From positions 2,121,828 to 2,185,827 of the forward strand of contig OX387195.1 in assembly GCA_947561395.2 (NCBI GenBank): 64,000 nucleotides of DNA. Direction: 5' to 3'. This document shows, piece after piece, positions 12,235 through 61,698 of this stretch; within the stretch, counting starts at the first letter, position 1; each line of letters starts with the position of its first letter. The DNA comes from Buxus sempervirens. Its lineage: Eukaryota > Streptophyta > Magnoliopsida > Buxales > Buxaceae. The notes under the pieces are model-generated. The model saw nothing but the letters and a program-made list of their open reading frames with translations, was not told the DNA's origin and ran no database searches. The translations under genes and the position numbers were made by a program.

Positions 12235-13072
12235 AAAATTGTCACGCCCTAGAACCAGGTCTGCCCCTCCAAGGCACAAACCCATCCCAGACCGTGGTAG
12301 GTGGGTCATTGTACTTGATAAAATGCAGAGAATTTAAAACTTTTTCCTAACAAATGCAAGTGATAAGGCAATTCATACTGTGCATATCAAAAGTGTGTTC
12401 TATATAAAAGAAATGTAACAAGACATGAAAGTTGGTTACAAAATGATGGGTGACTAATCACTCTCAAAATACAAAGTTTTACCAGTTCAAAATGTAAGCA
12501 CCCAAATTTTGATCGAACCAAAAACTGTTGAAAATAAAAACCTAAAAGTCAAACCCCTGAGGGAACAAAAATTTGACTTTTTGATCAAGTGATAAATGGC
12601 CACCTTGCTTTATCTCAGTGGATAGAGAATCTTGACACGATTCCAACGCAACTGAGTTTGCTGAAGTCGGAGTCTGGATAAAGGATTTATAGGCCAGTCA
12701 AACTTGAAGGAGAGCAGAAATTGACTTTCTACCAAAACCCTGAATCAGCTGCTTAATCCTATCCCAATGGATAGAGGACTCCGATACAGCTTTAACGCAA
12801 CTGAGTTTGCTCAAATTGGAGTCCGGATGAAGGAGATATCAGCAGTTGAAGTTCTAAGGGCAGTAATGCTGGAAAACTGCACACGTGGCAAAAGGTTGCA
12901 CACGTGGCGAGAGGCGCAGGAAAATATCTCGGGGGGCAATCCATGAATATCAAAACATACAAAATATCTCAGGGACTAAACCAAAAATGCGCAAGGACCA
13001 AATCCATGAATATCCAAGAGTATCAGGAGAATCTGCGAATATCCAGGGACTAAATCTGTAAATATCCGATTT

Positions 13073-13318
13073 GTATCCGACCATATATGTCGGATACACA
13101 CTTCTCTCTTCATATCCGAACTTGAATGTCGGATAAAAAAGATTTGATTGCTGGGTTCGTGTGGATTCACTGACAGATATGCGCAAAAAATTGAATTTTC
13201 GCAATCATGCTGTTTGTATCCGATATTTTATGTCGGATACAAAGGGAGTTATGTGTATCCGACCTACATGGTCGGATACACATAGGAGTATGTGTATCCG
13301 ACAACTCAGGTCGGATAC
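13073..13318 (+). promoter_or_regulatory. Phased inverted repeats upstream of the family A TATA box
   Basis: Five copies of GTATCCGAC-N7-GTCGGATAC (some degenerate) start at 13073, 13112, 13216, 13255 and 13294. Spacing is 39 bp inside each subgroup. The last ends 12 bp before CTATAAAAG. The arms are the same as those in the second Tat element (56339-56480), although the rest of the LTR is not similar. Confidence 0.85.
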
Positions 13319-13329
13319 ATTAAGTTGGC

Positions 13330-21785: not shown

Positions 21786-23587
21786 TGTGAGACATGGGAA
21801 AAAAATCAAAATCTAATGATTTCCTCTATCATCACACGGGATCAAATTAAACAAAGAGTCGCCACCATTCAATTGAGGTGTGAATGGACACCAAAATATT
21901 AAATAAGCACAAAAGGCAAATTTTAGGGCAAAATATCCCTCCTAAAAAAAACAACCAGAGATGGGTAGGTTATGAACAGGGGAAGGTGTTAGGCACCCCT
22001 ATTCATCCACACAAGGTGGTTGCCAGGTATTGTTCATGTTTAAATAAAGGAAAAAGCTTGCTATAAAAATCACACAAAATCACAAAAAAAACAAAAATAT
22101 ATGGTTTTTTCATATGAATAGTCTGATTGATCCAGAACTATCAAACATGATCATACCATTCCTAGGGTTTCATGATCAAAATAAAATTGAGATAAAATCA
22201 AATAAAATCAATTTAAAGTGAAAAATCCAAAAATCTGGCTTCAAGCTAAATTCTAGAAATCTAGAAAAATATGATTTTTATAAAATATTTCAAAATTGAA
22301 CTTGAATAGTCCAGGATATAGATAAAGCTCAAATTTCACATTAAATTTGAAAATCAAAACCAAAAATACCCACGTTTATGAAAAACACCAAAAGGGGAGA
22401 ATTTAGACCGTAGGGTCTTCTCTCAATAATGAAAAACAATTTAAAAATCATCTCATGAAACCCTAGAATTTATTTTTAGGCTTCTTGATTCAGATCTACC
22501 ATATTGATCATGATAAATCCAAGATCCTAGCCTAAAATCACAAAAATCACGAAAACAGTGCTGTAGGTGCAAATATGTGAAAAATCCAAATTTTATCAAA
22601 AAGTGGGGATCTCATGCTATAAACATCATAGATTCATGTTATTCATTCAGATATATCATAAAAAGCATTAAAACATGATCAGGATATTTAAAACAGCCAT
22701 ATCTCACAAATTAGAGCACATGGGGGTCTACCCTACGGATCCACCTGGTCCCTTTTCCCCTAGTTCTCTCTTCACGTTTTACGGCTAGAGAGACTCTTGA
22801 GGTACTTAGAGATAGGTTTAGTTACACAAACACAATCATAGGCCTTATTCTATGAAAAAAACAAAAAAAACATATATGGGGTTCTATTCTAGGGATCCAC
22901 CTGTTCCCCTTTCCCCTAGTTCTCTCTTCACGTTTTACGGCTAGAGAGACCCTTGAGGTACTTAGAGACAAGTTTAGGGATACAAAAACAGATATGGCCT
23001 TATTCTACAGCAATAGAGATGATCCTATTACTTCTAGAATTGAAGACAAAAAATAAAAAAGGATAGGGGACTTACCTGGATTGAGCAGACAGAGCAGCAG
23101 GGATTCCTTTCCTTCTCTTGTAGCTTCTTAGAATTCCTTGGACTCAAAATTTCGTGGTCTTTTGCTAGAGGAGAGACCCTATATTTATAAGCAGAGCTAG
23201 GGGTATGGTTGGTCCAGAAGGATATATCCTGATTCTCAGGATAGAGTGAAATATAGAGATAATGCCCATCCATAGTGGCTTCAGCGAATAAAATACTTAA
23301 TTCGCTCTTCTAAAGATATATTGGACTTCAAATAAAGCTCGGAAATCGAGAGAAGGACCAAACTTGCACGTGTCTGTAATGCCCGTAAATGATTTACGGT
23401 CCAATGGTGACCGTATTGGTACTACGGGCGCGCCTGCCCGTAGATATTTTGCGGGCGAGATAGGCCCGTGAAGCCAATACGGGCAAAGCCTGTTCTTTCT
23501 ATTTTTAGGCTTTTTTGACCTGTTTTAAGCTCTAATTACATGTTTTTATTATTTTCTCATTTGGCAGTGCAATTTGGGGTGTCTACA
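21786..23587 (-). repeat. 3' LTR of Tat element 1
   Basis: Plus-strand ends are TGTGAGACATGGG and GGTGTCTACA. It is almost identical to 41112-42922; a 9-bp gap lies near 21969. U3 holds four phased 21-bp inverted repeats (23381-23484), and a minus-strand TATA box (23181-23189) lies about 190 bp further. A direct duplication of about 135 bp (22736-23010) repeats the segment with CACGTTTTACGGCTAG. A PBS-like AGAGTCGCCA (21855-21864) lies 69 bp from the LTR end. Confidence 0.95.
23381..23484 (-). promoter_or_regulatory. U3 array of four 21-bp inverted repeats, 28-bp period
   Basis: Repeats start at 23381, 23409, 23436 and 23464 (steps 28, 27, 28). Consensus is GCCCGTA-N7-TACGGGC, with compensating changes in some arms. 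The same array is in the other LTR at 42716-42819. Confidence 0.9.
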
Positions 23588-23606
23588 GCTGCCCCCTCTT
23601 TGCTGG
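23588..23606 (-). other. Polypurine tract of Tat element 1
   Basis: The minus strand reads AGCAAAGAGGGGGCAGC immediately before the LTR start TGTAGACACC. The second Tat element has the matching AAAGAGGGGCAAT. Confidence 0.8.
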
Positions 23607-23941
23607 TAATTGGAACCAATTACAAGCAGAGAGCAAAAAGACCCGCCAATTGCACTTTCTGAGATTCTTGTATAATCAATTGCACTTTGCAATGATTAAA
23701 GGGATGATTTTAAAAAAAAAAAAATAATTGATTGTGGAAGATTTGCTAAGAAATCCCTCAGCTTAAGGGCCAAATCTTCCTCTCTCCTCTCACTGAGCAC
23801 TTGTGGGCTATGAAGTGAGATTTGAGACAAAATTTTTAAACAAAAGTGGGTAAGGTGGCAATCCTTGCAACTTACAACTAATATGTACATTAATCTCTTA
23901 AAAATGTGAGAAAATGATAAAAATATGCAATTTTTGGCTTC

Positions 23942-24045
23942 GCCCGTATGGTGCTTACGGACAGACCCTGCCCGTAGAGGTTTCACGGGTAACTGGGACC
24001 GTAGGGGTTTTACGGACGTCTGAAGCCCGTACTGAGTTTACGGAT
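23942..24045 (+). promoter_or_regulatory. Inverted-repeat array upstream of antisense gene A
   Basis: Four 21-bp repeats start at 23942, 23970, 23997 and 24025 (steps 28, 27, 28), with the same arms as in U3. Gene A's leader follows. A clear TATA box is not seen here, unlike the equivalent site in element 2. Confidence 0.85.
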
Positions 24046-25194
24046 TTTACTCTCTTCTTAAGACTCGCGACCGCGGCCTTTCTTCATTTCTGCTCGTATT
24101 TGGCCCTAATTTCTTCTTGACCGTGCTTTCTTCTCCGGCCTCTTCTCCTTCTTCCTCAATAGTCCCTCCGACGATCACTGTTCTCCGGCGAGCTTCTCAT
24201 TTTTTTCCGGCGATTCTCACTGTTCTCCGGTGACCATTGTTCCTTCGGTGAGCACTGTTCCTTCGGTGACTGTTGCTCTTCTCCCATTATCTGAACATTG
24301 CTTGCTCCCTTGGGTGATCCTTTGAAGCAGTAACCGACAGTGGACGGCTCCTGTGATTGAGCAACTCCTTGCTCTGGTGAGACCAAGCTCACATTCTTTT
24401 TTCGAAATTCAGATAAACAGGTATGTCTCTTTTTAGATTTTTCTGTTCATTAATGAGCTATTCCATTTCCTGTTTTGATTCTCTATCCTTGATTGTAGAA
24501 ATTCTGAACTGTCTCATGATTCAACATCTGATTCTTATGCTAATACCCTTTTTTGAAAATTCTCATGACTATCGGCTAATCTTCAATGCATATTCGATCC
24601 ATACTTGAGCTATTTAAATTGTTGATTTTCTGATTATGGAGAATCCCTGTTTTGATCTTTGAATTGTTGTATTTGCTTCATGATTTAATGCCCAATTGTT
24701 CTGTCCATGATTCACCTAAGGCTTGTTACCTATGTGTTTGCATGATTTTGAATGCCATGTGAGAATGCGTTCCTTTTATGCAATTTCCTGTTCTTGAGCA
24801 TGACGCATATTCCCAAATTTTTGAAGTGCTTTAATATCTGTCTTTTCCGAAACTTGTCGTTTGTATCTGTATGGACTTTGAGAACATATTCCAAATTCCC
24901 ATTTAATTCATAACTGATTATTCTGCAGACAATGAGAACTTGAACTTCTTGTCCTTAATCTATCCAAATGTTGAATCATCCTGGTTAAAGCAGATGCCAC
25001 CAAATAGAACAATAAAATTTCTTAAAATAAACTCCTTTAGGGGATTCATGATTTGATCAGGAGTTGCTGAAACACTTTTCTTTCATTTCCCAATTTTTCC
25101 TTTTTCCTGCCAATCAATTAAACTTGGTTAGAATAAAGATCAAACAATAAAATTTTAACAAGAATAATTAACATCTCCCTGATTTGAACCGTAG
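24046..25194 (+). other. Leader exon and leader intron of antisense gene A
   Basis: The leader carries repeated CCGGCGA/CCGGTGA motifs (24136-24240), as does the leader in element 2 (57342-57508). A consensus donor CAG|GTATGT lies at 24421. The acceptor GTAG ends at 25194, directly before the start codon. Element 2 has the same arrangement (donor 57564, acceptor 58491). The transcription start is not defined. Confidence 0.6.
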
Positions 25195-28040
25195 ATGGCC
25201 CGCCTTAGATCAGCTTCTAGGGATCCTGCGGATGAGCCTTCCTCTTCGAGAGTTAGGCGTGATCCTGCTGATGTGGCCTCGTCTTCGAGGGCAGAGAGGG
25301 ATTCAGATTCTGATGTCCCAGATCTCCCTTCTGGGGATTCGCGTGAGGCGACCCCAGAGGTATTCTCTAATCCTTCTGAATTTAACATTCTTTTACAAAA
25401 AACATCTCCTTGATCCTTTTCTTCTTTCCAATTGTTCCTTTAGCCGACAGTTGAGGCTTCGGGCAGAGATAGAAGCCGTATCAGACGCAGAGCTGGAGGC
25501 AGAGATGGAGGCCATGATGATGGCCATAGAGGAGGCCGCAGAGGGGGCCGTGGCAGAGATGAGGCCAGGACCAGGGTTGAGATCCCTGAGGAGGTGGCTG
25601 CCCAGATTAGGGATACCGATCTTCTGCATGGTTTGAGGACTCATCCCTCAGCATGTGTTAGGGCGGATATCCCTTTGGAGTATCCGATGTCCCATTATAG
25701 GGGGAGCTGGGCCAGCTTCACTAGATTTTTGAGAGCTTGCAGTTCGGCCTATCGTCGGGAGCTAGGATTGTATGGTTTTGGTATGTTTATCACCATCCCG
25801 GACGTACGCTTAGATCGAGCCCTCATTGCTGCATTGTTGGAGAGGTTTTTCCCAGAGACATTGAGCTTCCACTTTCCAGATATTGAGATTGGGATCCGGC
25901 CTTCTGATTTCACACTCATCACCGGGATTAGGATGATCGGTGATGTTATTACTGAGATGACTATGCCAGAGGCTGATGAGATTGCAGCTTATCTTGGATA
26001 TATTGTGCTGCCTCCTGAGGCATGGGATCGGGGGAGAGCTAGATTGTCTCTGACATGGCTGAGAGAGACTTTTAGTAGGAGGCAGTTTGGCCAGCTTGCT
26101 GCCGGTGACCATGTGTTCCCCTTCGCCTTCCGATTTCTTTTTCTGTATATGATGGGATCCTGCTTCTTCCCAGAGGACACGACTTCAGTTAGTCCTCACT
26201 TCTTGAGTCTTCTGGGAGATTTGCAGCGGGCGAGGAGGTACGCCTGGGGCCCACTCATATTTGGTACTATTCTGGCTGGCCTGCGCCGATCAGTGAGTGG
26301 CCTCTCTACTTCCAGAGGGGCTGGAGTTGGGTGCAGGTTCTTCTGGCCCTTCTTGCAGGTGAACCTTATTTCCCTTCTTTTTCTTTATCTCTTTTATTTC
26401 TCATTTTATATTCTTCTGACTATTTTCTTCTTTCTTGCAGTTTTTTGCTAGGGTTTATATTCCCTATTTCCGCCCTACCTCTACGATGCCTGAGGAGACG
26501 TATCCCATGGCACTTAGATGGTGTCATGTAGAGCACGACTCTGAAAAGAGTCGTCCCAGGTCCGCCCGGGCCCACTTAGACAGGTTATACCGGTCTGAGG
26601 TAATCTTCTTTAATTTCTCTACTTTCTTCTTTTCTTTTCTTCCTGGATCGCATATCTGATGTCTTGTTCTGTTTTTCAGCTATTTGTCCCCAGGATGGAG
26701 GACATTCATGAGGTGCTAGCCCTGCAGGCAGCCAGAGATGATGCATTTGTCCCTGACCAGAGACGACAGAGATACCAGTTCTTTATTGGTCAGCTGGGCA
26801 GCATCTGGTATTGCGGCGAGCGCTTCTTCTTTCAGCATGTGGGAGAGCCACGAATTCCTGCCATCCCGCCAGATACTACTCCTCTCTATCCTCCTATGCC
26901 TGTTGATCCTGCCCAGTTCTTAGATTGGACTGAGGCAGAGACATTATTGGAGGAGGGTGACTATGATGCATGGTTCAGGCGATCTTCTGTTGGGTGCCTC
27001 ATGTCACCCATGCCTGTCCGAGGCGGAGTCACGGAGATAGGAGGGGTAGTGATTAGGGCCTACGACACCACGGTATGCTTTCTTCTTTTGTGATCTTCTA
27101 TTTCTATTTCATCTGTCCTTAGCATTTTTCTGACTTCTTTCTTCTCTATTTCAGGAGGCTCAGTTGGCAGAGATCCGGTCTCGCTATGCTGATCTAGAGC
27201 GCCAGCGTGACGCCGCGATCGCCGAGCGGGATGCCCTCTATATTACCATCTCAGATCTCCGGGGGCAGCTAGCCAGAACCCAGGGCCAGGAGGGTCCATC
27301 TGATGTACATGATCAGGCGGGTCCATCTGATGCACAGGACCAGGCGGGTCCATCTGATACTCAGGTTAATTTCTTCTTTTATTTCCATTCCTGCTTTTGT
27401 ATTTGTTTGTCTTGTTCTAACTGAATTTTTCTCTTAGTTTCAGGCGTACACAGCTGGCCCTTCTTCACCTGCTTCACCCGTGCCTATGCATTTCCGGGAT
27501 GAGGTGTTTTCTGTGGCACGGGTGGAGTTCGTGACGTCTCCTAGTCCAGTGGAGGTTCCTGCAGCAGAGCCTGAGGTCGAGGCTGATATTGTACTTGCTG
27601 CTGCTGATGTGCCAGAGTCTGCCCCAGTAGCTGAGACGGCTCCTGCTACATCTGCTGATGTTGATATGGATTCGGCTGTGGACGCCGCTGTGGTAGAGCC
27701 TACCGTGGAGACTGCGGTGATGGCGGAGGCTACAGCTGATCCTGTAGAGCCTGGGGTAGAGATGACTGCTACTGAGCCTGAGACCTCTGCCCTTGCTAGT
27801 CCTACTATGGAGGATATCGAGGAGACGCATGCTGCTGTGGATACGTCAGAGGAGTCTTCCCGTACTGATTCTGATGTAGATACTTCAGGGTATGTCCCTC
27901 CTGATCATCCCACTGCTGGCCTTGTACCTTTATATATGTGGCATGATGTTCAGTCTGTTTTGAGCAGGATGCCGCGTAGCACAGCCCGCAATGTGGTGCG
28001 GCATGTCTTTGAGCGCAGGCGATCTTCAGGCCGAGGATGA
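25195..28040 (+). CDS. Antisense gene A: spliced PMD protein with RGG-rich segments
   Basis: Proposed exons: 25195-25359, 25444-26358, 26441-26599, 26680-27072, 27155-27364, 27438-28040 (acceptor 27444 also possible). All introns are GT-AG and phase 0, giving about 813 residues without a stop. In order: a Ser/Asp-rich N-terminus, an Arg/Gly-rich stretch (about residues 65-90), a plant mobile domain (RALIAALLERFFPET, IEIGIRPSDF, then AWGPLIFGTILAGL), a helical coiled segment (QLAEIRSRYADLERQRDAA), three copies of a QAGPSD-like unit, and a Pro/Glu/Ala-rich tail. The stop TGA (28038-28040) is followed in frame by more Arg/Gly codons, so the tail may be clipped. PMDs occur in transposons and in host MAIN/MAIL proteins that silence transposons. 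Function here is unproven; DNA binding or anti-silencing is inferred. Confidence 0.8.
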
Positions 28041-28295
28041 AGCAGAGGACGAGGCCGTGGCAGTAGGGTCGGACCTGCATGGTCATTAGATTAGGATTAT
28101 TCATATACACTTGTATTTTTTGGTAAAAGTGATGTAAACATTCATGTATATAAAAGAAGTTTGATTTATTTCCATTTGTGTTCTTTCTTCTTTATTTATA
28201 GTATTTATTACCTGATGAATGTTAAAACAGGGACAGGTGAAGCTTAGAAAACTAAGGAAATTAAAAATTCCCATTTTTTTGCATTTTTTCGAAGG
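28041..28295 (+). other. 3' flank of gene A
   Basis: Non-coding, AT-rich, with TTGTATTTTTTGG and TGTATATAAAAG segments that could serve 3'-end formation. No other gene is seen. Confidence 0.35.
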
Positions 28296-28427
28296 AACCG
28301 TATTTATACTACGAGCAAGCCGTGCCCGTAAAATTACTACGGGCGTACCTTGCCCGTGAAGTTTTCACGGTCAGGCGTGTCCGTAACGCCTATACGGGCG
28401 CGCCTTGCCCGTAATATAATTACGGAA
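28296..28427 (+). promoter_or_regulatory. Inverted-repeat array upstream of antisense gene B
   Basis: Five 21-bp repeats start at 28296, 28324, 28352, 28379 and 28407 (steps 28, 28, 27, 28). Arms match the U3 array. It ends 23 bp before a TATA box, which strongly suggests a promoter-proximal element. Confidence 0.9.
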
Positions 28428-28449
28428 TTTACTGCCTTGCGATTTTTTC

Positions 28450-28457
28450 TATATAAA
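28450..28457 (+). promoter_or_regulatory. TATA box of antisense gene B
   Basis: TCTATATAAACTCC lies 23 bp after the array and about 100 bp before the start codon. Element 2 has GCTATAAATGC at the same place (61699-61705). Confidence 0.75.
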
Positions 28458-28548
28458 CTCCTAGGGAACGTCATTGTGACACTTTTATTGATTGGAAAAC
28501 TCTCTGAGCACGTCTTTTCTCGCTTTCCTTGGCTTCTTTGGCGCTTCC

Positions 28549-29349
28549 ATGGCTTCCCCTACGCCGCTTTCTCCTGCCGTTGAATCTCCTCCTGCAAGAC
28601 AACCTGTTAGATCAAAACCTCCTAATCTTACCAGGTACAATATTGTGGATTCCTTTTATGATAGATGGATTAACTCCATGACCCTTGATGAGGAGATTCG
28701 TTGGGATTCCATCCACTTAGGACACATCCTACACCTCCCTAAAATTCCCTTTAAGTGGGAAATCATTGAAGCTTTGATAGGCCATTGGGTACCTGAGCTG
28801 AATCTCTTCCGTTTTGATGATAAAGAGATGACTCCTACCATAGAAGAGATTGAAACCATCCTTGGCCTTAGATTTTCTGAAAAAGTTGTGAACCCACCCC
28901 TAAAGCTTAGTTATAAAAAGGAGGCTTCCACTTTCTTGGGTATAGGGAAGAAGGACTTAGGAAATTCTGATGCACTATTGACCTTGTCCAAGACCTTTTT
29001 GACTGAAAAACTTCTGAGGAGTAATGACAAGGACTCTAGGTTTAATGCATTGACCCTAATAGTGGTCAATCAGCTGTTTTTTCCACGGGGTGATGACCAG
29101 GTTGACTTGGCTCTCATCTCAGTTATCTGTCAGGTTAGGGAACGCGAGAGGTTGGCCCCTATGATCCTAGCAGAGATATATCAGGCTCTTACTGATTGTT
29201 ATTTCAGGAAGAAGAAATGCTTCCTTGCCTGCGCCCCTATCCTACAGGTAAAATATGCATGTATTTTTTTTCTATTTTTTTTCTATTCTTCCTTTCCTTT
29301 CTTTCTTCTCTTTTTTTTTTCTTTTCTTCTTCTTCTCTTTTTTCTTTCT

Positions 29350-29412
<63 letters not shown>

Positions 29413-30339
29413 GGAAATAAATTGAAATACTCCCTTTTCCTGCAGCTTTGGTTGCTTGACCATCTTAGCCAGGTTGAAGAAATAACTCGCCGCTTCTTTC
29501 CAAGATTGAAAGTTCCTGTTCTGATGAGCAATAGGGGATGTCCTAACATCCAAGGTGGCAAGCAAGGCTGGTTCGCTTTCTTGGGTACTCTCCAGGATGA
29601 TCAAGTGAGATGGCCTGGCACTTATCAGCCCACTCCAGAGACAGTGATCAGCTTTAGAGATAAAAACTTTCTGGTCTTAGCAGGCTTGAAATCTGCTATT
29701 CTCTATCTTCCTTTGAGGGTTCTTCGGCAATTTGGAGCGACCCAGGGAATTATGATTCCCACAGGTTATGAGAGCTTTATAGGGCCACTTACTTCAGCCA
29801 CCATGGGGCTAAATGCTCAATTAATGAAAGAGTGGTCCTATGTTTGCTTTCTGCGGGGTCCAGTCTTTTCTGAGTCCCATGTGAAGGACTATCACTTCTG
29901 GATCAAGGAACAGGTGCAGAGTCATGCCCCAGTACCAGAGGATCCTCCTGCAATTTTTCCTCCTACTTATGAGGACATTCTGGAGTCAGAAAGGGCAACC
30001 CATAAGCGGCTTCAACAAATATGGGTACGGGAGGCTCAAGAACTTAGGATAAAAGTCCTTGTTCTGGAGAGGAAGCTTGAAGAGCAGAAGTCTGGCCGCA
30101 TTGCCATGGAGAAGAAACTTGAAGAACAAAGGCAGGCTCGTCGCTTTGAAGTCCGTGTGATGCGGAAGAAGTATCAGGATTCCTTGGCTGACCTTAGGGC
30201 GTTGAAGATCAAACTTTCTTTTTCAGATGAGGTCATCTCCTTTTTGAGTGATCCTGATGCAGAGGGTGCTTCTGGAATCATTGCAACTCAGGCGGCTAGG
30301 ATTAGAGAGCTTGAGGAGCAGTTAGGGAGTAGGGATTAG
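28549..30339 (+). CDS. Antisense gene B: PMD/DUF7745-like protein with C-terminal coiled coil
   Basis: Exons 28549-29247 and 29446-30339 give about 530 residues. The intron (donor CAG|GTAAAA, acceptor TGCAG) is a 198-bp T-rich tract that happens to stay open. The start at 28549 is preferred over 28492 because element 2 aligns from there (RSKPPNLTRYN at residues ~20-30 in both). The core (KWEIIEALIGHWVPELNLF, EMTPTIEEIETILGLR, ALISVICQVRERERLAPMI, LWLLDHL) resembles the PMD-like family that I recall as DUF7745, common in plant mobile elements. The last ~150 residues are heptad-like (RLQQIW...RKLEEQ...IRELEEQLG), so it may oligomerise. Convergent with pol. Role unknown. Confidence 0.85.
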
Positions 30340-30812
30340 ATTCTTTCATCATTTTTTTTTCTTTCATTTTTTCCATACCTTTTTTACAAAAGCAAACTCC
30401 ATTAGTGGAAAGATATTAGATTTAATTCAAAAATAGGTTTTATATTATTGGCCTCAGAATTCTCAGATGCTTATAAAAACAGAAGTTTTATGAAAAAGTA
30501 TTTGATTTCTCATCACTGGCCAAAGTATAGTTTTTTTTTTTTTTTTTTTGAAAGCTGATCCAAAACACTTAATCACATATAATTAAAGGAATTAAAATCA
30601 GGTTGAATAATGAAAAGGGTAGTCCAACCAATAGGGAAAGACCAAATTTGTCTACCCCGTGACCTTTAGAATCATCCCCTAATGATTTTTCCTTCATGAT
30701 TGGCCTTGCTAATCTGCTCAGTTTCCAGTGCTCATGCTGATTTGAAACTTAGACCCCATGATCAACTCAACCCTTGATTCTTTTCTTCTTCTTTTTTTCT
30801 TTTTTTCTTTTT

Positions 30813-30844
<32 letters not shown>

Positions 30845-31339
30845 GCCCTTCTCGCCCCTAGTGCCAATTACGGTTTTCACTAGGGTTGGCCTCTGCATTC
30901 CGTCATCACCAATCCTACTCTGAAAGTTGAATGAATATACTAAAATCACCGAGGTCTTAATAATAGGACGAAACAAAGGCTAGGTTCGGTTTATGAAAGA
31001 AAAGGTATTAAAGGCTCAAAATTTTCTAAGTGTGAAAATGGGTCAACTGGACTTACAGTTATGGTGAATTCAATCCCATTCCCCTTCTTTTGTATTTGGC
31101 ATTTATTTGCCCCTATTTTTTTTCTTTTTCTTTTTTTTTTCAAATTTTTTCTTCTCTTTTTTTTTTTTTCTTTTTGCCCCTCTTGGCCTTGCCCTTATTG
31201 GCTTTGCCCCAGTATAATGCTGTAAGTCCAGTTTGGGTTTAACAAAAAAATACGAACAGGCTCAAATTGGTTTGACTAGGGATTCAAATTTTGGGATATA
31301 AAGAACAATGGCCTCAGATCCTTTCCTAGTAATATTCAT
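30340..31339. other. Convergent 3' region between gene B and pol
   Basis: No ORF is supportable; T-tracts cause lysine-rich shadow ORFs. About 300 bp (30385-30690) is strongly similar to 63515-63850 in element 2, including ATATTATTGGCCTCAGAATT. This is more conserved than expected for non-coding sequence and may hold 3'-end signals for both strands. Confidence 0.55.
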
Positions 31340-32554
31340 TCATGGAAAATATCTCTTTACTGCATCAGAGTTAATTGGCTCAGGAAAATCCTTCCCATCC
31401 ATTTCTGTTAAGATGAGAGCACCCCCTGATAGAACTTTCTTGACCACATAAGGTCCTTCCCAATTTGGTTTGAACTTTCCACGAGGATCTTCCAAAAAGG
31501 GTAAAATCTTCTTTAATACCAAATTTCCTTCTTGGAAAGTTCTGGGCTTCACTTTTTTATTGTAAGCCCTAGCCATCCTCTTCCGATATAATTGGCCATG
31601 ACTAAGTGCCTTCAAACGTTTTTCTTCTATTAAATTAAGTTGATCATGTCTAGACTGTATCCATTCAGCTTCTTCTAATTCTGCTTCCATTAGCACTCTT
31701 AGTGAAGGTATTTCCACTTCCACTGGTAAAACTGCTTCCATTCCATAGACTAAGGAGTATGGGGTTGCCCCTGTAGAAGTCCGGATTGAGGTTCTGTAAG
31801 CATGTAAAGCAAGTGGCAGCATTTCATGCCAATCTTTAAAACTCACTACCATTTTCTGAATAATCTTCTTTATATTCTTATTCGCTGCTTCCACTGCCCC
31901 ATTCATCTTCGGTCTGTAAGGTGCTGACTTGTGGTGGGTAATCTGAAATTGTTCACACATCTTCCTCATGTCTTTGTTCTTAAGGTTTGAAGCATTGTCT
32001 GTTACTATGGCACTTGGCAAACCATAGCGGCAAATGATGTTGTGCTTCAAAAACTTAAGAACATGGCTACTCGTAATGTTTGCATAAGAAGCCGCTTCTA
32101 CCCACTTGGTGAAGTAATCAATTGCTACAAGTATAAACCTGTGTCCATTTGATGCCTTTGGAGAGATCATTCCAATGACATCTATACCCCACATAGAAAA
32201 AGGCCACGGAGATGTCATACTGTGTAATTCACTTGGGGGCGCATGCTTGTTATCCGCGTACACTTGGCATAAATGACACCTTTTAACGTGCATATAGCAA
32301 TCATGCTCCATAGTCGACCAGTAATATCCCAATCGCAGAATCTTCTTGGCAAGCATATGCCCATTCATATGGGGTCCACACACTCCTCCATGTACGGTTT
32401 CAACTATCCTTTCTGACTCAGTTTTTGCAACACATCTAAGTAGTATATCATTGTGTGATCTTTTGTACAACTGCCCACCACTTAGTAAGTCCTGCCAGCC
32501 TCTGTATTGTTCTTTTTTCTGTAGAGGTGACATTTTCTGGTAAACTTCGATCAT
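31340..32554 (-). CDS. pol: Integrase (pol 3' part)
   Basis: Catalyses insertion of the reverse-transcribed DNA. The zinc-binding region shows HGGVCGPHMNGH and CHLCQ. The catalytic core shows WGIDVIG, VTDNASN and NGAVEAANKN, giving the D, D and E of DD35E. A C-terminal domain follows with GNLVLKKI and NWEGPYVVKKV. The stop is at 31340 with no chromodomain, as expected for Tat. This frame differs from the RNase H frame upstream, with the switch at about 32480-32510, so one small indel separates them. The domain itself is intact. Confidence 0.92.
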   Translation of the reverse strand: MIEVYQKMSPLQKKEQYRGWQDLLSGGQLYKRSHNDILLRCVAKTESERIVETVHGGVCGPHMNGHMLAKKILRLGYYWSTMEHDCYMHVKRCHLCQVYADNKHAPPSELHSMTSPWPFSMWGIDVIGMISPKASNGHRFILVAIDYFTKWVEAASYANITSSHVLKFLKHNIICRYGLPSAIVTDNASNLKNKDMRKMCEQFQITHHKSAPYRPKMNGAVEAANKNIKKIIQKMVVSFKDWHEMLPLALHAYRTSIRTSTGATPYSLVYGMEAVLPVEVEIPSLRVLMEAELEEAEWIQSRHDQLNLIEEKRLKALSHGQLYRKRMARAYNKKVKPRTFQEGNLVLKKILPFLEDPRGKFKPNWEGPYVVKKVLSGGALILTEMDGKDFPEPINSDAVKRYFP

Positions 32555-33779
32555 TCAGAAAGTTCTTAATGTCTTGAAACCATGGTACTTCTTCTTCTGG
32601 GGTTTCTTCTAGAACAAGGCAGTAAGCTGGTTCATCCCTGACTTCAATTTCTAATGGTCTAATATCAACCCCTTCTGGCATACTGACCATTGAAGCCAAT
32701 GTTGCTAGAGCATCTGCAAACTGGTTTTTGGCCCTTGGCATATAATTGAAGGAAATTCGAGTAAACTTGGTGCTTATTTCTTCCAAATACTGGTGATAGG
32801 GGATCAATTTGTGATCCTTGGTCTTCCATTCACCAGTTGTTTGGAAGATGATAAGACTCGAATCCCCATATACGTCAAGTTCCTCTACTTCATGATCTAA
32901 GGCTGCTTGTAACCCAATTATGCATGCTTCATACTCTGCTATATTGTTTGTGCATTGGAACCTTAACTTCACTGCGATCGGGATATGTGCCCCATCTGGC
33001 TTGATCAATACAGCCCCTATTCCATTTCCATTCATATTGGCGGCCCCATCAAAAAACATTTGCCATGAGCTTTCACCTTCTTCCTCTTCAGCAAACAGGA
33101 TTGCCTCATCAGGGAAGTTGGTCTTTAAGGGTTGGTATTCTGGTAAAGGGTGTGCGGCTAAGTGATCTGCAATAGCTTGACCCTTAATGGCCTTCTGTGT
33201 GATATAGGTGAGGTCAAATTCAGAGAGTAACAACTGCCACTTTGCTGTTCTGCCAGTTAAAGCCGGTTTCTCAAATAGATACTTCAAAGGGTCCATGCGG
33301 GATATCAATAAGGTGGAATGACTAAGGAAATAGTGCCTTAGTCTCTGAGTTGCCCATACTAAAGCACAACAAGTCTTCTCTAAGGGGGAATACTTTGCTT
33401 CATATTCTGTAAATTTCTTGCTTAGGTAGTAAATCGCCCTCTCCTTTCTGCCTGTATCGTCATGCTGTCCTAAGACACACCCCATTGATGTCTCCAAAAC
33501 AGACAAGTATAGAATTAATGGCCTTCCTGGAGTTGGTGGCACTAGCACAGGTGGGTTCAATAAGTACTCCTTTATTGTGTCAAAGGCTTCTTGGCAATCA
33601 TCATTCCAGACTGTCGGGTTATTCTTTCTTAAAAGTTTGAAAATTGGTTCACAGATAGCGGTGAGCTGTGCTATGAACCGGCTTATGTACTGAATCCTTC
33701 CAAGAAAGCCCCGAACCTCCCTCGGTTCTAGGTGATGGCATTTCAATGATGGCTTTAGCTTTAGCTGGGTCAATCTCAA
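32448..33779 (-). CDS. pol: Two RNase H domains (pol middle part)
   Basis: First, a gypsy-type RNase H region derived from the RT connection: ILYLSVLETSMGCVLGQHD, then RAIYYLSKKFTEYEAKYSPLEK. Then a second, archaeal-like RNase H: MFFDGAANMNGNGIGAVLI, NNIAEYEACIIGLQAA, DVYGDSSLII, with the DGA/E/D acidic set visible. Two RNase H domains are a recognised mark of the Tat lineage. It is joined to RT through a frameshift near 33716 in a G-rich run and to integrase through another near 32490. Confidence 0.88.
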   Translation of the reverse strand: MRLTQLKLKPSLKCHHLEPREVRGFLGRIQYISRFIAQLTAICEPIFKLLRKNNPTVWNDDCQEAFDTIKEYLLNPPVLVPPTPGRPLILYLSVLETSMGCVLGQHDDTGRKERAIYYLSKKFTEYEAKYSPLEKTCCALVWATQRLRHYFLSHSTLLISRMDPLKYLFEKPALTGRTAKWQLLLSEFDLTYITQKAIKGQAIADHLAAHPLPEYQPLKTNFPDEAILFAEEEEGESSWQMFFDGAANMNGNGIGAVLIKPDGAHIPIAVKLRFQCTNNIAEYEACIIGLQAALDHEVEELDVYGDSSLIIFQTTGEWKTKDHKLIPYHQYLEEISTKFTRISFNYMPRAKNQFADALATLASMVSMPEGVDIRPLEIEVRDEPAYCLVLEETPEEEVPWFQDIKNFLNDRSLPENVTSTEKRTIQRLAGLTKWWAVVQKITQ

Positions 33780-34959
33780 TTCCTCTTCTGCTTACTATAA
33801 AACCCAATAATTTTCCTGACGTAGCCCCAAAGACACACTTAGCAGGGTTAAGCCTTAGACTGTATTTCCTAAGCCGGTCAAATACCTTCTTCAAGCTGAT
33901 CAAGTGGTCTTCTTCTTCACATGATTTGGCTATCATATCATCCACATAAACCTCCATCTCCTTATGGATCATATCATGGAATAAGGCTGTCATGGCCCTC
34001 TGGTAGGTTGCCCCAGCGTTCTTAAGTCCAAATGGCATGACAGTGTAGTGGAAGGTACCCCAAGGGGTGATAAAGGCTGTCTTCTCCTGATCTTCCTTAG
34101 CCATCTTAATCTGATTGTACCCAGAAAACCCGTCCATGAATGAGAACAAGCTATGTACAGCGGTGTTATCCACCAAGATGTCAATGTGTGGAAGTGGAAA
34201 ATCATCCTTTGGACTTGCCTTATTTAAATCTCTATAATCTACGCACATTCTGACCTTTCCATCCTTCTTTGGTACTGGCACTATATTTGCAAGCCATTCG
34301 GGGTATGTGGAAACTGCTAAGAATCCAGCTTGGAATTGCTTAACCACTTCATCTTTAACCTTCAATGTCCATTCAGGTTTTAACCTTCTCAGTTTCTGCT
34401 TAACTGGCTTAGAGTCTGGTAGAATGGGTAGCCTGTGCACCACCATATCTGTGTCTAACCCCGGCATATCCCGATATGACCATGCAAACACATCTTCATA
34501 ATCAGCCAAAAATCGTATCATTTCATCCCGCTGTACCTCAGATAGGCATACCCCAATCTTCACTATTTTTGGGTCATCTTCGGTCCCTAGGTTGATTGAT
34601 ATGGTCTCTTCAATATTGGGTTGGACCCCCTTTTCATGACGCTCTAATTGATATGTGATTTCTTTTGGAACGTCGTCTTCTTCGTCCTCGGTCTCTTCTT
34701 CAACCCCCATTAGGTCAAAGTCGAGCTCAAGGTCGAAGTCATACTCATCCTGATCAAATTCCGTTTGTTTATATGGTTCATAAATGGTTTGGACCTTTTT
34801 GAAAACTTTATCTTTTCTAGAAAAAACTGAAAAATCTTTTTGTGTTTTTTGAGAGCCTTCTACAAAATCTTTCCCTGAAGACGAAGGCTCATTAAAACCT
34901 TCAGGAAAAGGGCATTCCACTAATGGAGTTTTTTTTTGGAAGCCATGTCTGTTTGCCAA
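33649..34959 (-). CDS. pol: Reverse transcriptase (pol 5' part)
   Basis: Contains the RT signature blocks: VRMCVDYRDLNKASPKD, SFMDGFSGYNQIKM with the first catalytic Asp, TPWGTFHYTVMPFGLKNAGATYQ, and the YVDD box (EVYVDDMIAKS). An acidic N-terminal segment (about residues 60-100) precedes it. The frame overlaps the end of gag-pro by 40 bp at an A9 run and lies in the -1 frame. The true RT end continues in the next frame: a one-base difference in GAGGGAGG (about 33716-33722) shifts the reading, so full pol cannot be made without correction. Confidence 0.92.
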   Translation of the reverse strand: MANRHGFQKKTPLVECPFPEGFNEPSSSGKDFVEGSQKTQKDFSVFSRKDKVFKKVQTIYEPYKQTEFDQDEYDFDLELDFDLMGVEEETEDEEDDVPKEITYQLERHEKGVQPNIEETISINLGTEDDPKIVKIGVCLSEVQRDEMIRFLADYEDVFAWSYRDMPGLDTDMVVHRLPILPDSKPVKQKLRRLKPEWTLKVKDEVVKQFQAGFLAVSTYPEWLANIVPVPKKDGKVRMCVDYRDLNKASPKDDFPLPHIDILVDNTAVHSLFSFMDGFSGYNQIKMAKEDQEKTAFITPWGTFHYTVMPFGLKNAGATYQRAMTALFHDMIHKEMEVYVDDMIAKSCEEEDHLISLKKVFDRLRKYSLRLNPAKCVFGATSGKLLGFIVSRRGIEIDPAKAKAIIEMPSPRTEGGSGLSWKDSVHKPVHSTAHRYL

Positions 34960-37900
34960 ACAAACGCGGCTTCAAAAGTAAGGGGAGTTTCCTCCCAATT
35001 ATTCAGAATGAAAGAATCTGGGGCAGGGATACAAGCCTGCTCCTCAAGCTCAGGGTTTGCATTTGAGATCACCAGTACTGGGTGAGTTGCATTGCCTGCT
35101 TCTTCGGTAGGGCCAGTTCCAGATGGAACTTCTACTGCAGCCCAGTCAATAAAAGGTAGCTCCTCTGCTACTTTTTCTTGGTTGCCTTCTGTCATGGCAA
35201 AGAATGCCCCTACGTCCTCAGAAAAATCCTGCTTTTGTTCGGCTTGTGGCCCAGGCCCCCCAGATGCTTGTGGAGGTGGAGGTGGAACATATGGTTGTAT
35301 TGTGGAGGGTTTGGGTTTCTGGAATGGGTTGACATTGTAGTATGGAGGTTTAGACTGATCCTCAGGAGGAGACAGCTGAATCATGTGAGACGGCTTAGGA
35401 AAAGTTTCCCTGATGTGTGGGAATTTCATAACTTCTATCTGCCCCTGACTTTTCCATTTCCTTGGCTTGGACCCCAATCCTGCTCTATGAACCATCTTCT
35501 TAACCTGAACTGGTTCTATCCTTCCTTGTAGGTTAATCCCCAGACCTTTTCCAGGGTGAAAATGGTACTTTTCTAATACATTTTTGACCATTTTTTCAGC
35601 ACAGGTCAATTTTCCTTCTTTTTGTTGATACCCCCCAGGTATATAATTCACAGCTTCAAACTGAAAAGAGTGAAATGCCATCTTATCTGCTGTCATTTCC
35701 GTGTTAATACAGGGTACATCAGGGGACCACATGGGGGGAACCAAATTTTCGGCCAGGACGGTAATCACCTTTTGCCCTCTAATATACTTGACTCTTTGGT
35801 GGAGGGTAGATGGTATGGCCCTAGCTGTATGAATCCACGGCCTTCCTAGGAGTAGGTTGAAAGCCGCAGGTATATCCATCACTTCAAATGTGATGTTGAA
35901 AATATACGGTCCAATTGTGACCGGCAGTTCAACCTCCCCTAGGGAGTGTGTCTTAGAGCTGTCAAATGCTCTTATAATTCTTCCATTTTGTTTTATTTTG
36001 TTTCGCTCCAGATTGAGCTTAACAAAGGTTACTAAAGGGCAGACATTGAGGGCTGACCCATTATCAATCAAGACCCGGGCTATCATGCAGCCCTTACTGA
36101 GCACAGCAATGTGCAATGGATCCACATGATGGTATCCTGCTGGACTAATTTCAGTTTCAGAAAAGGTTATGACATTATGGGATAATATTTGACCAACCAT
36201 CCGGCCTAGTTGGTCTGGTTCAATGTTTTTAGGTACATGGGCCCCCTGGAGTATTCTTAACAAGGAGTCCCTATGTTTTTCTGAGTTTAACAATAGGCCC
36301 AGTATTGAGATCTGGGCAGGGACTTTGTTCAACTGTTCGATGACATTGAACTCACTCTTTTTTATTACCTTAATGAGGTCAGCAGCCTCACTGTCAACTA
36401 CCTGGGGGGTATCTTCCCCTACCTTGGCCTTTCCTTTATTTTTTCCTTCTTCTTTATCCTTCTCTGTTTCTTTCTGTTTTTCTTCCACCCCTACACACTT
36501 TCCTGACCTCATCATAAGGTTTACTTCTTCCTTGCTTTCAACTGCAGGGCATGTAGTGGTGAATGCTTCACTGTAGTTCCATGGTACAGCCGATTCAATG
36601 TAGGAAGGCTTAGGGACGTTTACCACCAATGGGGGAAGTTTGGAATTGGCAATGGAAGTCTGAGTAATGGGAACATTAACAACCAATGGAGGAAGTTGTT
36701 TTGGTTGTGGGTTTGCAGAAGTGACTGATGCACTAAGGGGGTCACAATTTATGACCAATGGTGGCTTAGACTGAATGGGCGGAGTAAAAGTGGATGGATT
36801 GTAATTAATGACCAAAGGTGGCTTGGCGATGTTCATTTGGGCCATGAGGGATGAGACCCGGTCCAAAGATGAGCTAATGTTCTTTGCAGCACCATCATTC
36901 CCCTTTGAAATCATGTTTATTTCTTTGCCTTCACTTCTCTTGTCAAAATATACTTTGACTGTTGTCCCTATGGGAGCAATTAATTGAGATGGGTCAAAGG
37001 TTATTTTGTCAGAAGAGATGACTCCTATGACATTAGATGGGCCTGTCCCGCGATGTTGGGGCAGTGGGTTTTGTCCAATATCTGTTCTTGGAGGATTGGA
37101 AGCCCCTGTATTGAAAGACAGGGTATTCTGGTCTAGTAAATCCTGAATGGCATGTTTCAAAGGCCAGCACTTGTCTGTAGGGTGCCCAGGTGCACCCATA
37201 TGGTAATCACAAGTGGTGGAGGGGTCAAAATTTCTCCCCTTAGATGCATTAGGATTAGGTTCTCTTAAGGTGATATACCCTCCTTGCAATAAAGTGGGCA
37301 GCAATTGAGAGGGAGTCATTGGAATAGGGGTAAAAATCCTATTTCTCCTTGCTGCAAAATAGGCATCCTTTTCCTCTTTGGTAAAAACCCTTTTTTGGTC
37401 TGAAGGTGCTGTTGGAACATTAACCCTCATAGGGGCCTGGGTAGGTGGAGATGGAGTAGGAAAATGAGCCGGTACATTGATTTGTATGGGTTTGTTAGGG
37501 CCAGATGGTGGCTGTACCATGTTTACCTCACCCTCCTTCTTGTTCCCATTCTTTTTTGTTCCGCTTCCTTTCTTTAGGTTGGGGTCATGCTGGCTAATCA
37601 TGGCAGAGTGGTCAATTATCTTGCCTGACCTTATTCCATCCTCAATTCGGTCAGCCACCTGAACCAAAGCTGCAAAATTAGTGGTGGTCTGACCCACCAA
37701 GTGGCTGTAGAATGGTTGACCCAAAGTGCTTATGAAGGTAGAAATCATTTCCTGTTCTAGCATGGGTGGCCTGACCTGGGAGGCTGTCTCCCTCCACCTC
37801 TTGGCATATTGCCTTACTGTTTCTTCCCTTCCTTTGCTCATTCTCATGACGTCGTACCTATCTGGCATGATCTCTGAATTGAACCGGTATTGAGCTAGGA

Positions 37901-38612
37901 AGGCATCGGCTAGGTCCTTCCATCTTTTGATCTTCCCATGGTCCAGAGTGGCGAACCATCTTAATGCGGTTCCTGTCAGGCTCCTTTGGAAAAGTTGGAT
38001 CAAGATGCCCTCATCCTGCCCGAACTGGCATAGGGCACCGCAATACAACTTTAGGTGGCTCATGGGGCAACCAGTGCCATCATACTTGTCCAAGTCTGGA
38101 CACTTAAACTTAGCCGGCAGGTTAACATTGGGGTATAGGCACAGGTCTTCAAAATTGGTGCCTCCAAAGTTGTTTACCCCTTTGACTTCCCTAAGTTCAT
38201 CTTGGATCATTTCTAGCTTATGCATGAACTTTCTTTCAACCTCTTCCCTTATCCTTTCCTTTTCCTTAGCCTTGTTTGATTCAGCTGTCTCATCCCTGGT
38301 CAGTATAGGTTCAGGGGTGGGTTCATAGACAGGTTCAGGAGTTGGTTGCACTGGAGGTGGAACATTGACTTGGGGTGGAGGTGCAGGGTTGGATGTGGAT
38401 GCCTGGTTCTGGGCCTGCATTTGTTGGGCCTGCACTTGTTGGGCCTGTACTGACAGTATGTTCTCTAGCATTCGGGCTAGTCCTGCCACTTGTTCTTGGA
38501 GTAGAACGACATCAGGATGAGGAGCATCAACTTCATCTTCAATGGGATTCATGGCTCGAGCTCTTGATCTGGTTACAGGAGCTATGATTGCGAGTGTATT
38601 AGTACCTGGCAA
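34920..38612 (-). CDS. gag-pro: Gag-protease polyprotein with G-patch-like segment
   Basis: 1230 residues. The N-terminus has Gln/Ala-rich and Pro-rich linkers and a charged helix. The gag domain spans about 167-325 (LDKYDGTGCPMSHL, GTALRWF, VRQYAKRWRE). A Cys/His knuckle variant is at about 468-483 (CDYHMGAPGHPTDKC). A long Pro/Val-rich linker with repeated 'PPLVVN' follows. The retroviral-type aspartic protease site is at about 849 (VLIDNGSALNV). A G-patch-like stretch is at about 1000-1045 (PGKGLGINLQGR). The stop follows an A9 run that overlaps pol. The leader lies upstream. Intact in this copy. It should form the particle and process the polyprotein. Confidence 0.93.
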   Translation of the reverse strand: MPGTNTLAIIAPVTRSRARAMNPIEDEVDAPHPDVVLLQEQVAGLARMLENILSVQAQQVQAQQMQAQNQASTSNPAPPPQVNVPPPVQPTPEPVYEPTPEPILTRDETAESNKAKEKERIREEVERKFMHKLEMIQDELREVKGVNNFGGTNFEDLCLYPNVNLPAKFKCPDLDKYDGTGCPMSHLKLYCGALCQFGQDEGILIQLFQRSLTGTALRWFATLDHGKIKRWKDLADAFLAQYRFNSEIMPDRYDVMRMSKGREETVRQYAKRWRETASQVRPPMLEQEMISTFISTLGQPFYSHLVGQTTTNFAALVQVADRIEDGIRSGKIIDHSAMISQHDPNLKKGSGTKKNGNKKEGEVNMVQPPSGPNKPIQINVPAHFPTPSPPTQAPMRVNVPTAPSDQKRVFTKEEKDAYFAARRNRIFTPIPMTPSQLLPTLLQGGYITLREPNPNASKGRNFDPSTTCDYHMGAPGHPTDKCWPLKHAIQDLLDQNTLSFNTGASNPPRTDIGQNPLPQHRGTGPSNVIGVISSDKITFDPSQLIAPIGTTVKVYFDKRSEGKEINMISKGNDGAAKNISSSLDRVSSLMAQMNIAKPPLVINYNPSTFTPPIQSKPPLVINCDPLSASVTSANPQPKQLPPLVVNVPITQTSIANSKLPPLVVNVPKPSYIESAVPWNYSEAFTTTCPAVESKEEVNLMMRSGKCVGVEEKQKETEKDKEEGKNKGKAKVGEDTPQVVDSEAADLIKVIKKSEFNVIEQLNKVPAQISILGLLLNSEKHRDSLLRILQGAHVPKNIEPDQLGRMVGQILSHNVITFSETEISPAGYHHVDPLHIAVLSKGCMIARVLIDNGSALNVCPLVTFVKLNLERNKIKQNGRIIRAFDSSKTHSLGEVELPVTIGPYIFNITFEVMDIPAAFNLLLGRPWIHTARAIPSTLHQRVKYIRGQKVITVLAENLVPPMWSPDVPCINTEMTADKMAFHSFQFEAVNYIPGGYQQKEGKLTCAEKMVKNVLEKYHFHPGKGLGINLQGRIEPVQVKKMVHRAGLGSKPRKWKSQGQIEVMKFPHIRETFPKPSHMIQLSPPEDQSKPPYYNVNPFQKPKPSTIQPYVPPPPPQASGGPGPQAEQKQDFSEDVGAFFAMTEGNQEKVAEELPFIDWAAVEVPSGTGPTEEAGNATHPVLVISNANPELEEQACIPAPDSFILNNWEETPLTFEAAFVWQTDMASKKKLH
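34927..34937 (-). other. A9 run at the gag-pro/pol frame change
   Basis: In the gag-pro frame the minus strand reads AAA AAA AAA before CTC and a stop. The downstream pol frame is -1. A_AAA_AAA is a possible slippery heptamer. A simple homopolymer indel is the alternative. Confidence 0.4.
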
Positions 38613-38828
38613 AATAAAGATAAAATATCAGTGCCAATTTAATCTCATTCACATGTCTAGGTATACTTATGTGCAAGCTGGGTGAACACGAGTTTGGATT
38701 TTTTTTTTATTTATTTATTTATTTGCTTCCTTTTTTTTATTTTTTTATTTTATTTTATTTTATTTTTTTTGAATTGAATTGTTGGAATATTCTAGGGCTT
38801 CCAACAGATCCCACAAAAGAGAGAAAGG

Positions 38829-39588
38829 TCTGAAATTCAAAGGCTTTCAGAGGCCCGGGTTTTTTTTTTTTTTTTTTTAAAAGGTCTGAAATTCAGAGGC
38901 TTTCAGAGGCCCAGGGATATTTTTGGAAAAGGTCTGAAATTCAGAGGCTTTCAGAGGCCCAGGGATGTTTTGATGAAAGTCTGAAATTCAAAGGCTTTCA
39001 GAGGCCCAAAAGGAAAAGGTCTGAAATTCAAAGGCTTTCAGAGGCCCAAAAGTTCTGAAATTCAAAGGCTTTCAGAGGCCCAAAAGATCTGAAATTCGAA
39101 GGCTTTCAGAGGCCCAAAAGTTCTGAAATTCAAAGGCTTTCAGAGGCCCAAAAGAAAAAGGTCTGAAATTCAAAGGCTTTCGGAGGCCCAAAAATTCTGA
39201 AATTCAAAGGCTTTCAGAGGCCCAAAAGAAAAAGGTCTGAAATTCAAAGGCTTTCAGAGGCCCAAAAGATCTGAAATTCAAAGGCTTTCAGAGGCCCAAA
39301 AGAAAAAGGTCTGAAATTCAAAGGCTTTCAGAGGCCCAAAAGTTCTGAAATTCAAAGGCTTTCAGAGGCCCAGAAGATCTGAAATTCAAAGGCTTTCAGA
39401 GGCCCAGGGATTTTTGAGAAAAAGTCTGAAATTCAAAGGCTTTCAGAGGCCCAGGGATTTTTGAGAAAAATCTGAAATTCAAAGGCTTTCAGAGGCCCAG
39501 GATTTTTTTTGAAAAATCTGAAATTCAAAGGCTTTCAGAGGCCCAAGAGTTTTGAAAAAGTCTGAAATTCAAAGGCTTTCAGAAGCCC
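38829..39588. repeat. 19-copy tandem repeat in the leader
   Basis: The 28-bp core TCTGAAATTC/AAAGGCTTTC/AGAGGCCC is repeated 19 times with linkers of about 5-20 bp. Each core contains a dyad, TCTGAAA-N9-TTTCAGA. Cores are nearly identical while linkers vary in length. Confidence 0.95.
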
Positions 39589-39714
39589 AAGGAACCTTTC
39601 TCTCACATTTTTTTTTTGAAGCATTTTATTCAAACTTGTTTCTCTTTATCATTATTTAAAGGTTAAAAGAATATTTTAGTGGGAAAAACTGATTAAAGTT
39701 GAATATTCCGAGAA

Positions 39715-39847
39715 AACCGTATACACAGTACGGTCCAGCCCTGCCCGTATTCAAATTACGAGCAAGCCGTGACCGTATGGAAAACACGGGCGAGCCCAGC
39801 CCGTATAGGTTATACGGGCAAGCCCAGCCCGTGTACTAAATGCGGTT
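39715..39847. promoter_or_regulatory. Leader array of five inverted repeats at exact 28-bp steps
   Basis: 21-bp repeats start at 39715, 39743, 39771, 39799 and 39827. Arms are the CCGTA/TACGG type of this element. The 7-bp spacers are alike (around AAGCCCA). No obvious TATA box lies beside it on either strand, so it could be an enhancer, a leader promoter or an RNA structure. Confidence 0.9.
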
Positions 39848-41090: not shown

Positions 41091-41109
41091 GTCCCCAGCA
41101 GAGTCGCCA
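41091..41109 (-). other. Primer-binding site of Tat element 1
   Basis: The minus strand reads TGGCGACTCTGCTGGGGAC two bases after the LTR end. TGG pairs with a tRNA CCA end. From memory this type is used by Ogre/Tat elements and assigned to an arginine tRNA; the tRNA identity was not checked. Confidence 0.8.
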
Positions 41110-42922: not shown

Positions 42923-42927
42923 GTTGC

Positions 42928-57198: not shown

Positions 57199-57205
57199 AC
57201 CTGCT

Positions 57206-61686: not shown

Positions 61687-61698
61687 ATTAAAAGATGC

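Follow-up and report, generated by a model that had tools for sequence, protein, structure and literature searches.

The window analysed here, a 64,000-nucleotide stretch of the Buxus sempervirens genome (contig OX387195.1, positions 2,121,828 to 2,185,827), carries a complete Ogre/Tat-like long terminal repeat (LTR) retrotransposon, E1, on its minus strand. Rows of short inverted repeats (dyads) stand in the U3 region of its LTRs, ahead of each of its two antisense genes, A and B, and in its gag leader. The locus raises the question of what reads these arrays, and to what end. Our reading is that a rigid dimeric regulator binds them; this is probably the antisense protein with a plant mobile domain (PMD, PF10536) that the element itself encodes, and it would counter silencing in the manner of the VANC proteins of VANDAL transposons; we put the probability of this reading at roughly one half (about 0.52).

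Results

Dyad arrays of E1

The dyad GCCCGTA-N7-TACGGGC occurs 22 times in five arrays, listed here without strand: four copies in the U3 of each LTR (42716..42819 in the 5' LTR, 23381..23484 in the 3' LTR), four before gene A (pre-A array, 23942..24045, with CTGAGTT as the last core), five before gene B (pre-B array, 28296..28427) and five in the gag leader (39715..39847). The initial annotation had the count and all five coordinate ranges right. A scan of the window for the dyad with up to 3 mismatches gave 23 matches vs. 0.59 expected from shuffled sequence, of which two, at 469 and 21225, lay outside E1 and the other 21 within it; a half-site scan added the fifth dyad of the leader (39827-39847). 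Half-sites in the U3 and pre-A arrays alternate in direction every 14 bp, with one step of 13 bp in each array, and the dyad step of 28 or 27 bp is therefore two half-site steps. The E1-type steps in the window and at 21 fetched loci, 110 in all, measured 28 bp (89), 27 bp (14), 110 or 111 bp (6) and 59 bp (1). The pre-B array does lie just before a TATA box, as had been noted: 22 bases separate its last position, 28427, from the first of TATATAAA, 28450. The broader claim, that arrays occupy every promoter-like site of the element, held for the places named but not for a recognisable core promoter at every array; in the LTR, the TATA box (TATAAATAG at 42524) comes about 190 bp downstream of the U3 array, and no TATAWA occurs within 75 bp of the pre-A and leader arrays.

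One further copy of E1 with its two LTRs and its A and B genes was fetched (C1:12.194-12.214 Mb), and it has all five arrays at the same places; two shorter relatives (L030-L031 and L031-L032) have the U3 and leader arrays; the sample of E1 copies is small. A dyad with an 8-bp core recurs 1.7-1.8 kb upstream of gene A copies (G000 C1:22726600, C4:42726703, C8:8801396 and others), apparently as part of the pre-A array in a single E1 subfamily. Two single dyads with other arms were also seen outside E1: CCCCGTA-N7-TACGAGG at 21225-21245, beside an LTR-start-like sequence at 21077, and GTCCGCA-N7-TGCGGAC at 19192-19212 in a lone Tat LTR (17488-19807).

A second dyad type

A de novo search uncovered a dyad of another sequence, TGTATCCGAC-N7-GTCGGATACA, whose copies mostly follow each other at 39-bp steps, in a second Tat element (E2) and in a further family (F). 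E2 has its dyad type at the same four places as E1: in U3 (56338..56481, 4 dyads), before gene A (57134..57199, 2 dyads, with TATAAAAG at 57206), before gene B (61543..61687, 4 dyads, with TATAAATG at 61699) and in the gag leader. The leader array lies beyond the window; the layout of E1 predicted it, and it was then found (four dyads, 39-bp steps); the first stretch fetched for it missed the array, and the next, placed by homology, contained it. Family F has a TATA-proximal array of 5 dyads of the E2 type at 13072..13319, its TATA box 24 bp from the last dyad centre, and a second copy with the same layout at 49551..49798. A family G, like F taken as an LTR family with unmapped ends, was seen at L021, L024, L026, L028, L034 and L036 with a pair of E1-type arrays separated by about 1 kb, one of them with a TATA box at 25-26 bp. 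L021 contains a DUF7745/PMD frame flanked on either side by a G stretch, the two stretches being 75% alike; the frame shares the strand of the TATA box, and the stretches may belong to one element.

The arms and the period differ between the dyads of E1 and E2, but a rigid frame, CCG-N11-CGG, is common to both. This frame was found 47 times in the window vs. 1-7 times at 14 other gaps, and 137 times in 200 kb of contig C1, a region chosen around E1-type matches, vs. 4-32 times at 21 other gaps. The same rigidity was seen when a single genome (676.5 Mb) was searched, for which all counts are lower bounds and in which the dyads are related by descent and so are not independent events. The E1 dyad with a 7-bp core (up to 2 mismatches) occurred at at least 47,405 places (mirrored control, 495) and with an 8-bp core at at least 1,982, which is chance level (mirrored control, 2,321). 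The E2 dyad occurred at at least 23,050 places with a 7-bp core and at at least 36 with an 8-bp core, and exact GTATCCGRY-N7-RYCGGATAC at at least 24,495; the mirrored control was 0 in each of the three. Genome-wide, the core sequence varies widely while the core length is constant. No dyad array of either type was found in viral contigs.

The two types often share a core at their array ends. CTGAGTT or its complement (up to 1 mismatch) is the core of 22 of the 216 dyads found in the window and the fetched loci, vs. 0.58 expected, and all 22, many of which are related copies, are first or last in their group, in both dyad types (this is automatic for three, in groups of one or two); examples are at window positions 24027, 56460, 61666 and 13298 and at L039 710. 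Hybrid dyads, CCGGC-CTGAGTT-TACGG, to which each type gives one half, were seen at L026 2278 and L034 5320. The shared end cores and the hybrids suggest that both dyad codes derive from one array. Between copies, two homologous dyads have the core in flipped orientation (6 of 123 pair comparisons of homologous dyads vs. 0 of 404 of non-homologous ones). These are window 42746 vs. L030 1742 and window 39801 vs. L030 8323, with the arms kept; a third such inversion was seen at window 13298 vs. L037 939.

Position of the arrays relative to TATA boxes

The 216 dyads fall into 68 groups, 50 of which hold two or more and are counted as arrays; mirrored sequence gave 28 dyads. TATAWA was present within 75 bp of 16 of the 50 arrays, and in 12 of these 16 it starts 24-26 bp from the nearest dyad centre, vs. 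0.44 expected over all 50 arrays; the other four distances were 20, 33/35 (twice) and 62 bp. The 12 arrays belong to four classes, namely family G (7), family F (3), E2 pre-B and E2 leader, where, with 12 classes as we defined them, 0.11 would be expected.

Constraint on the arms

Substitution was compared between arms, cores, spacers and flanks in six alignment sets. The E1-family U3 set comprised 7 elements, each represented by a single LTR; omitted were the partner LTRs (window left LTR, L020, L031 1183 and L032) and a fragment lacking U3 (L033 9280-9924). Here the arms differed at 0.112 per pair-site (128/1140), the cores at 0.396 (216/546), the spacers at 0.455 (191/420) and the two flanks at 0.199 and 0.213. 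At the level of sites, arms were slower than cores (p 7.8e-6) and than spacers (p 1.7e-6), and cores and spacers were faster than flanks (p 1.2e-7). The initial annotation had proposed selection on binding-site geometry; both the arm rates and the arrays in other copies favour it.

In the remaining sets, the E1 leader (4 copies) gave 9/300 for inner arms, 0/120 for outer arms, 41/210 for cores, 17/168 for spacers and 92/1562 for flanks; in the same order, the proximal G array (6 copies) gave 17/400, 4/160, 65/280, 40/175 and 2224/8513, the distal G array (8 copies) 160/1120, 156/448, 257/784, 251/568 and 2336/6308, the E2-like U3 (4 copies) 67/240, 16/240, 74/168, 83/216 and 295/1642, and family F (3 copies) 42/150, 10/150, 52/105, 127/333 and 165/621. 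In each of the six sets the inner arms changed more slowly than cores and spacers; the outer arms did so in five.

The inner arm bases of the E2-like copies differ coherently, on both arms. The inner dinucleotide of the U3 dyads is AC in 8/8 halves of E2 and 7/8 of L035, and GT or GC in all 16 halves of L026 and L037; in family F the two window copies have mostly AC, and L037 has GC or GT for the most part. The outer GTATCC is mostly unchanged despite these differences. The dinucleotides of the two halves matched in 20 of 30 distinct dyads, taken from the first 56 plus-strand places among the matches listed, vs. 11.4 expected (p 0.0002), and in 36 of 59 E2-type dyads in the window and fetched loci. 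With four sets pooled, CpG was retained in arms at 121/132, in flanks at 208/283 and in cores and spacers at 23/34. Decay of methylated cytosine was considered as a source of the AC, GC and GT differences; all are transitions, so it is possible, but the CpG of the half-site is mostly retained.

The antisense proteins

A and B are distantly related to each other (24.8% identity, E-value 2.6e-7). Amino acid identity between E1 and E2 was 48.7-50% for A, 60-68% for gag and 75-79% for B, in a comparison limited to these three parts since the E2 reverse transcriptase lies outside the pieces read. Within the E1 family, the ratio of nonsynonymous to synonymous change (dN/dS) was 0.06 in the PMD of A (at dS 0.21) and 0.64, from few sites, in its C-terminal part. 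A is thus the most diverged of the three parts between families with different dyads and is kept within the family that shares a dyad, which, from two families, points to A as the reader. The genome yielded 4,059 first-look gene A candidates; the best 150 of these were scored, and all were at least 97% identical over the domain, 141 without an internal stop and 9 with one. A search of a large protein database with A returned one homologue, a soybean MAIN-like 2 protein, and a sequence search of the PDB with A and B gave no match up to an E-value of 1.

Structure of E1

The 5' LTR (41112..42922) and the 3' LTR (21786..23587), both on the minus strand, are identical at 1803 of 1816 aligned columns, with 4 mismatches and one 9-bp gap, and a 5-bp target duplication, GTTGC, flanks the element at 21781-21785 and 42923-42927. 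The gag-pol region (31340..38627, minus strand) consists of four overlapping frames with gag, G-patch, reverse transcriptase, two RNase H-type domains and integrase; by Pfam this is the Ty3/gypsy order with a second RNase H (gag, RT, RT_RNaseH and RVT_3, then integrase). Gene A (25195..28040, plus strand) has several exons, with its start and exon limits placed by eye, and the PMD lies in the frame at 25444-26448. Gene B (28549..30339, plus strand; start also placed by eye) has DUF7745 (PF24924) and a PMD, and a T-rich stretch at about 29227-29449 within it is probably an intron. An extra antisense open reading frame with a PMD between pol and the 3' LTR is an Ogre/Tat trait, which E1 fits. 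Directly inside the 5' LTR is TGGCGACTCTGCTGGGGA (41092..41109, minus strand), a primer-binding-site-like sequence found with a query motif itself taken from the window, and possibly of the Ogre (tRNA-Arg) type. Other repeats were seen near the start of gag (38872-39593; tandem units of 34, 40 and 46 bp, every unit having an inverted pair of its own, TCTGAAA ... TTTCAGA) and to the right of E1 (43358-43754; CTCCCCCACAGGAG-like units).

Discussion

That the putative reader of the dyads binds as a dimer is, as judged from the DNA, well supported. Each array would be a row of sites for a dimeric, sequence-specific DNA-binding protein that reads two half-sites, with the CCG and CGG triplets held exactly 11 bp apart and the 7-bp core largely free, and that takes its specificity from the family-specific bases around the triplet. 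Such binding probably controls the promoters of the element, since the sites are in U3, upstream of A and B, and in the leader, and keep a fixed distance to a TATA box in several contexts. The identity of the binder, and whether it activates or represses, we infer: the element's own antisense PMD protein would be the binder, A being a better candidate than B, and the result would be a self-targeting regulatory loop in which protein and sites diverge together between families. By analogy with VANC, the likeliest effect would be that copies of the element stay expressed or become so again, by activation or by anti-silencing; this is the weakest step. More tentatively, the whole could be a self-encoded promoter-control (anti-silencing) system of LTR retrotransposons, in which rigid antisense PMD dimers act on the dyads of their family at the element's promoters, specificity switches jointly in protein and sites, and tens of thousands of sites are scattered in the host genome.

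Several observations weigh against the element's own protein as a reader of this kind. Among the rates, the difference between arms and flanks in the E1 U3 set reached only p 0.010 at the level of sites; the outer arms of the distal G array (0.348) were no slower than its cores (0.328); and inner arms were faster than flanks in the E2-like (0.279) and F (0.280) sets, these high values being due to the coherent dinucleotide differences. The E2-like set by itself had no CpG advantage in the arms (24/27 vs. 35/39). As to promoters, 34 of the 50 arrays, including the U3, pre-A and leader arrays of E1, lack TATAWA within 75 bp, and the 12 well-spaced cases are mostly copies of two LTR families. As to the proteins, amino acid identity to the C1:12.19 Mb copy showed A (96-100%) to be no faster within the E1 family than gag (95%) or B (96-98%), and the co-divergence of protein and sites rests on two element families. 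Gene A of E2 has an in-frame stop, as does gene B of the fetched E1 copy. A tblastn search with A matched only E1, E2 and the E1 copy, no element-borne gene A being established for F or G, and a PMD frame in L022 is not assigned to an element. The structure model of the gene A PMD was unusable (mean predicted confidence, pLDDT, 43.7), with no DNA-binding fold demonstrable.

The most serious alternative, which we nevertheless consider rather unlikely, is that the element exploits a dimeric host transcription factor, with different families using different host paralogues. A host dimer would equally yield the rigid frame and the TATA distance, and it would suit the presence of arrays in F and G, for which gene A is not established. 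Against it, the coherent two-arm differences between E2-like copies, with outer arms kept, would need a matching change of the reader, and E1 and E2 each hold one dyad type at four separate places. It is improbable that the arrays are instead sites for a host silencing factor. The CCG half-sites can bear CG and CHG methylation, and host PMD proteins function in the silencing of transposable elements according to the available text of PMC7156037; however, an element should lose such sites, and the arms and, in the pooled sets, their CpGs are retained, as they are in E1, which is complete and has near-identical LTRs. Tandem duplication with gene conversion, without any function, is very improbable as the sole cause: the fast cores and spacers of the E1 U3 are as expected under array turnover, and core inversions between copies fit it also, but duplication would keep the spacers too, whereas it is the arms, core length and period that persist, across separate places and across families whose arms differ. 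Barely credible is the idea that the dyads act as RNA hairpins (in packaging, stability or small interfering RNA formation), for although 7-bp stems with 7-nt loops could fold and the U3 and leader arrays are within the full-length RNA, changes in the E1-type inner arms are uncompensated (157 dyads: A/A 120, A/G 14, G/A 13, G/G 3) and lack the side bias that G-U pairing would produce (element strands pooled), the pre-B arrays are upstream of the gene B TATA box, and hairpins would not be expected to keep a loop of exactly 7 throughout the genome.

Element-encoded regulators that act on repeated short sites have precedents in the subterminal motifs of En/Spm, bound by TnpA, and in the 21-bp repeats of the HTLV-1 U3 with antisense HBZ; both concern another class of element, another protein and another site architecture. 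Closer is the VANC/VANDAL system of Arabidopsis, in which, from the available parts of the sources, a protein encoded by the transposable element has tandem short target motifs (YAGTATTAY, AGTTGTCC/AGTTGTAC) in non-coding regions of the element, the motifs differ between related families, and co-evolution of sites and protein is proposed (PMC5735166, PMC10398659). The tandem candidate motifs of E1 and E2 likewise lie in non-coding regions and change from one related family to the next. The VANC motifs are not described, in those parts, as dyads with a fixed core, which the E1 and E2 sites are, and VANC binding and demethylation are proven there, whereas the E1 and E2 sites are candidates read from the genome. 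VANDAL is a Mutator-like DNA transposon without LTRs; E1, with its LTRs, gag-pol and 5-bp duplication, is outside the VANDAL system because of the LTRs and gag-pol, and may nonetheless work in a VANDAL-like way.

A regulatory role has been suggested for the antisense extra open reading frames of Tat, Ogre and Retand elements, and their function called unknown; a PMD is found in 57% of Ogre elements, and Retand has family-specific tandem repeats (PMC11963269, PMC7264820, PMC6317226, PMC9289625). The accessible text of these accounts mentions neither target sites nor promoter dyads, nor any matched arrays. The host PMD proteins MAIN and MAIL1 are, in the accessible text, required for genes with a common promoter motif (25/26; PMC7156037), and recognition of this DOWN motif by them is merely suggested (PMC7156037, PMC9899485). 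The likeness is of PMD proteins tied to a promoter motif; the difference is that, in that text, the targets of MAIN and MAIL1 are host genes. No description of dyads such as those of E1 and E2 was recognised in the literature searched, subscription papers being mostly outside that search.

The antisense genes of Tat, Ogre and Retand elements are an old puzzle, and promoter sites of fixed geometry and family-specific sequence make their function directly testable. If the proteins are the readers, the PMD would become a DNA-recognition domain, with a code that could be read from the natural AC, GC and GT differences, and anti-silencing encoded by transposable elements would reach beyond DNA transposons to LTR retrotransposons.

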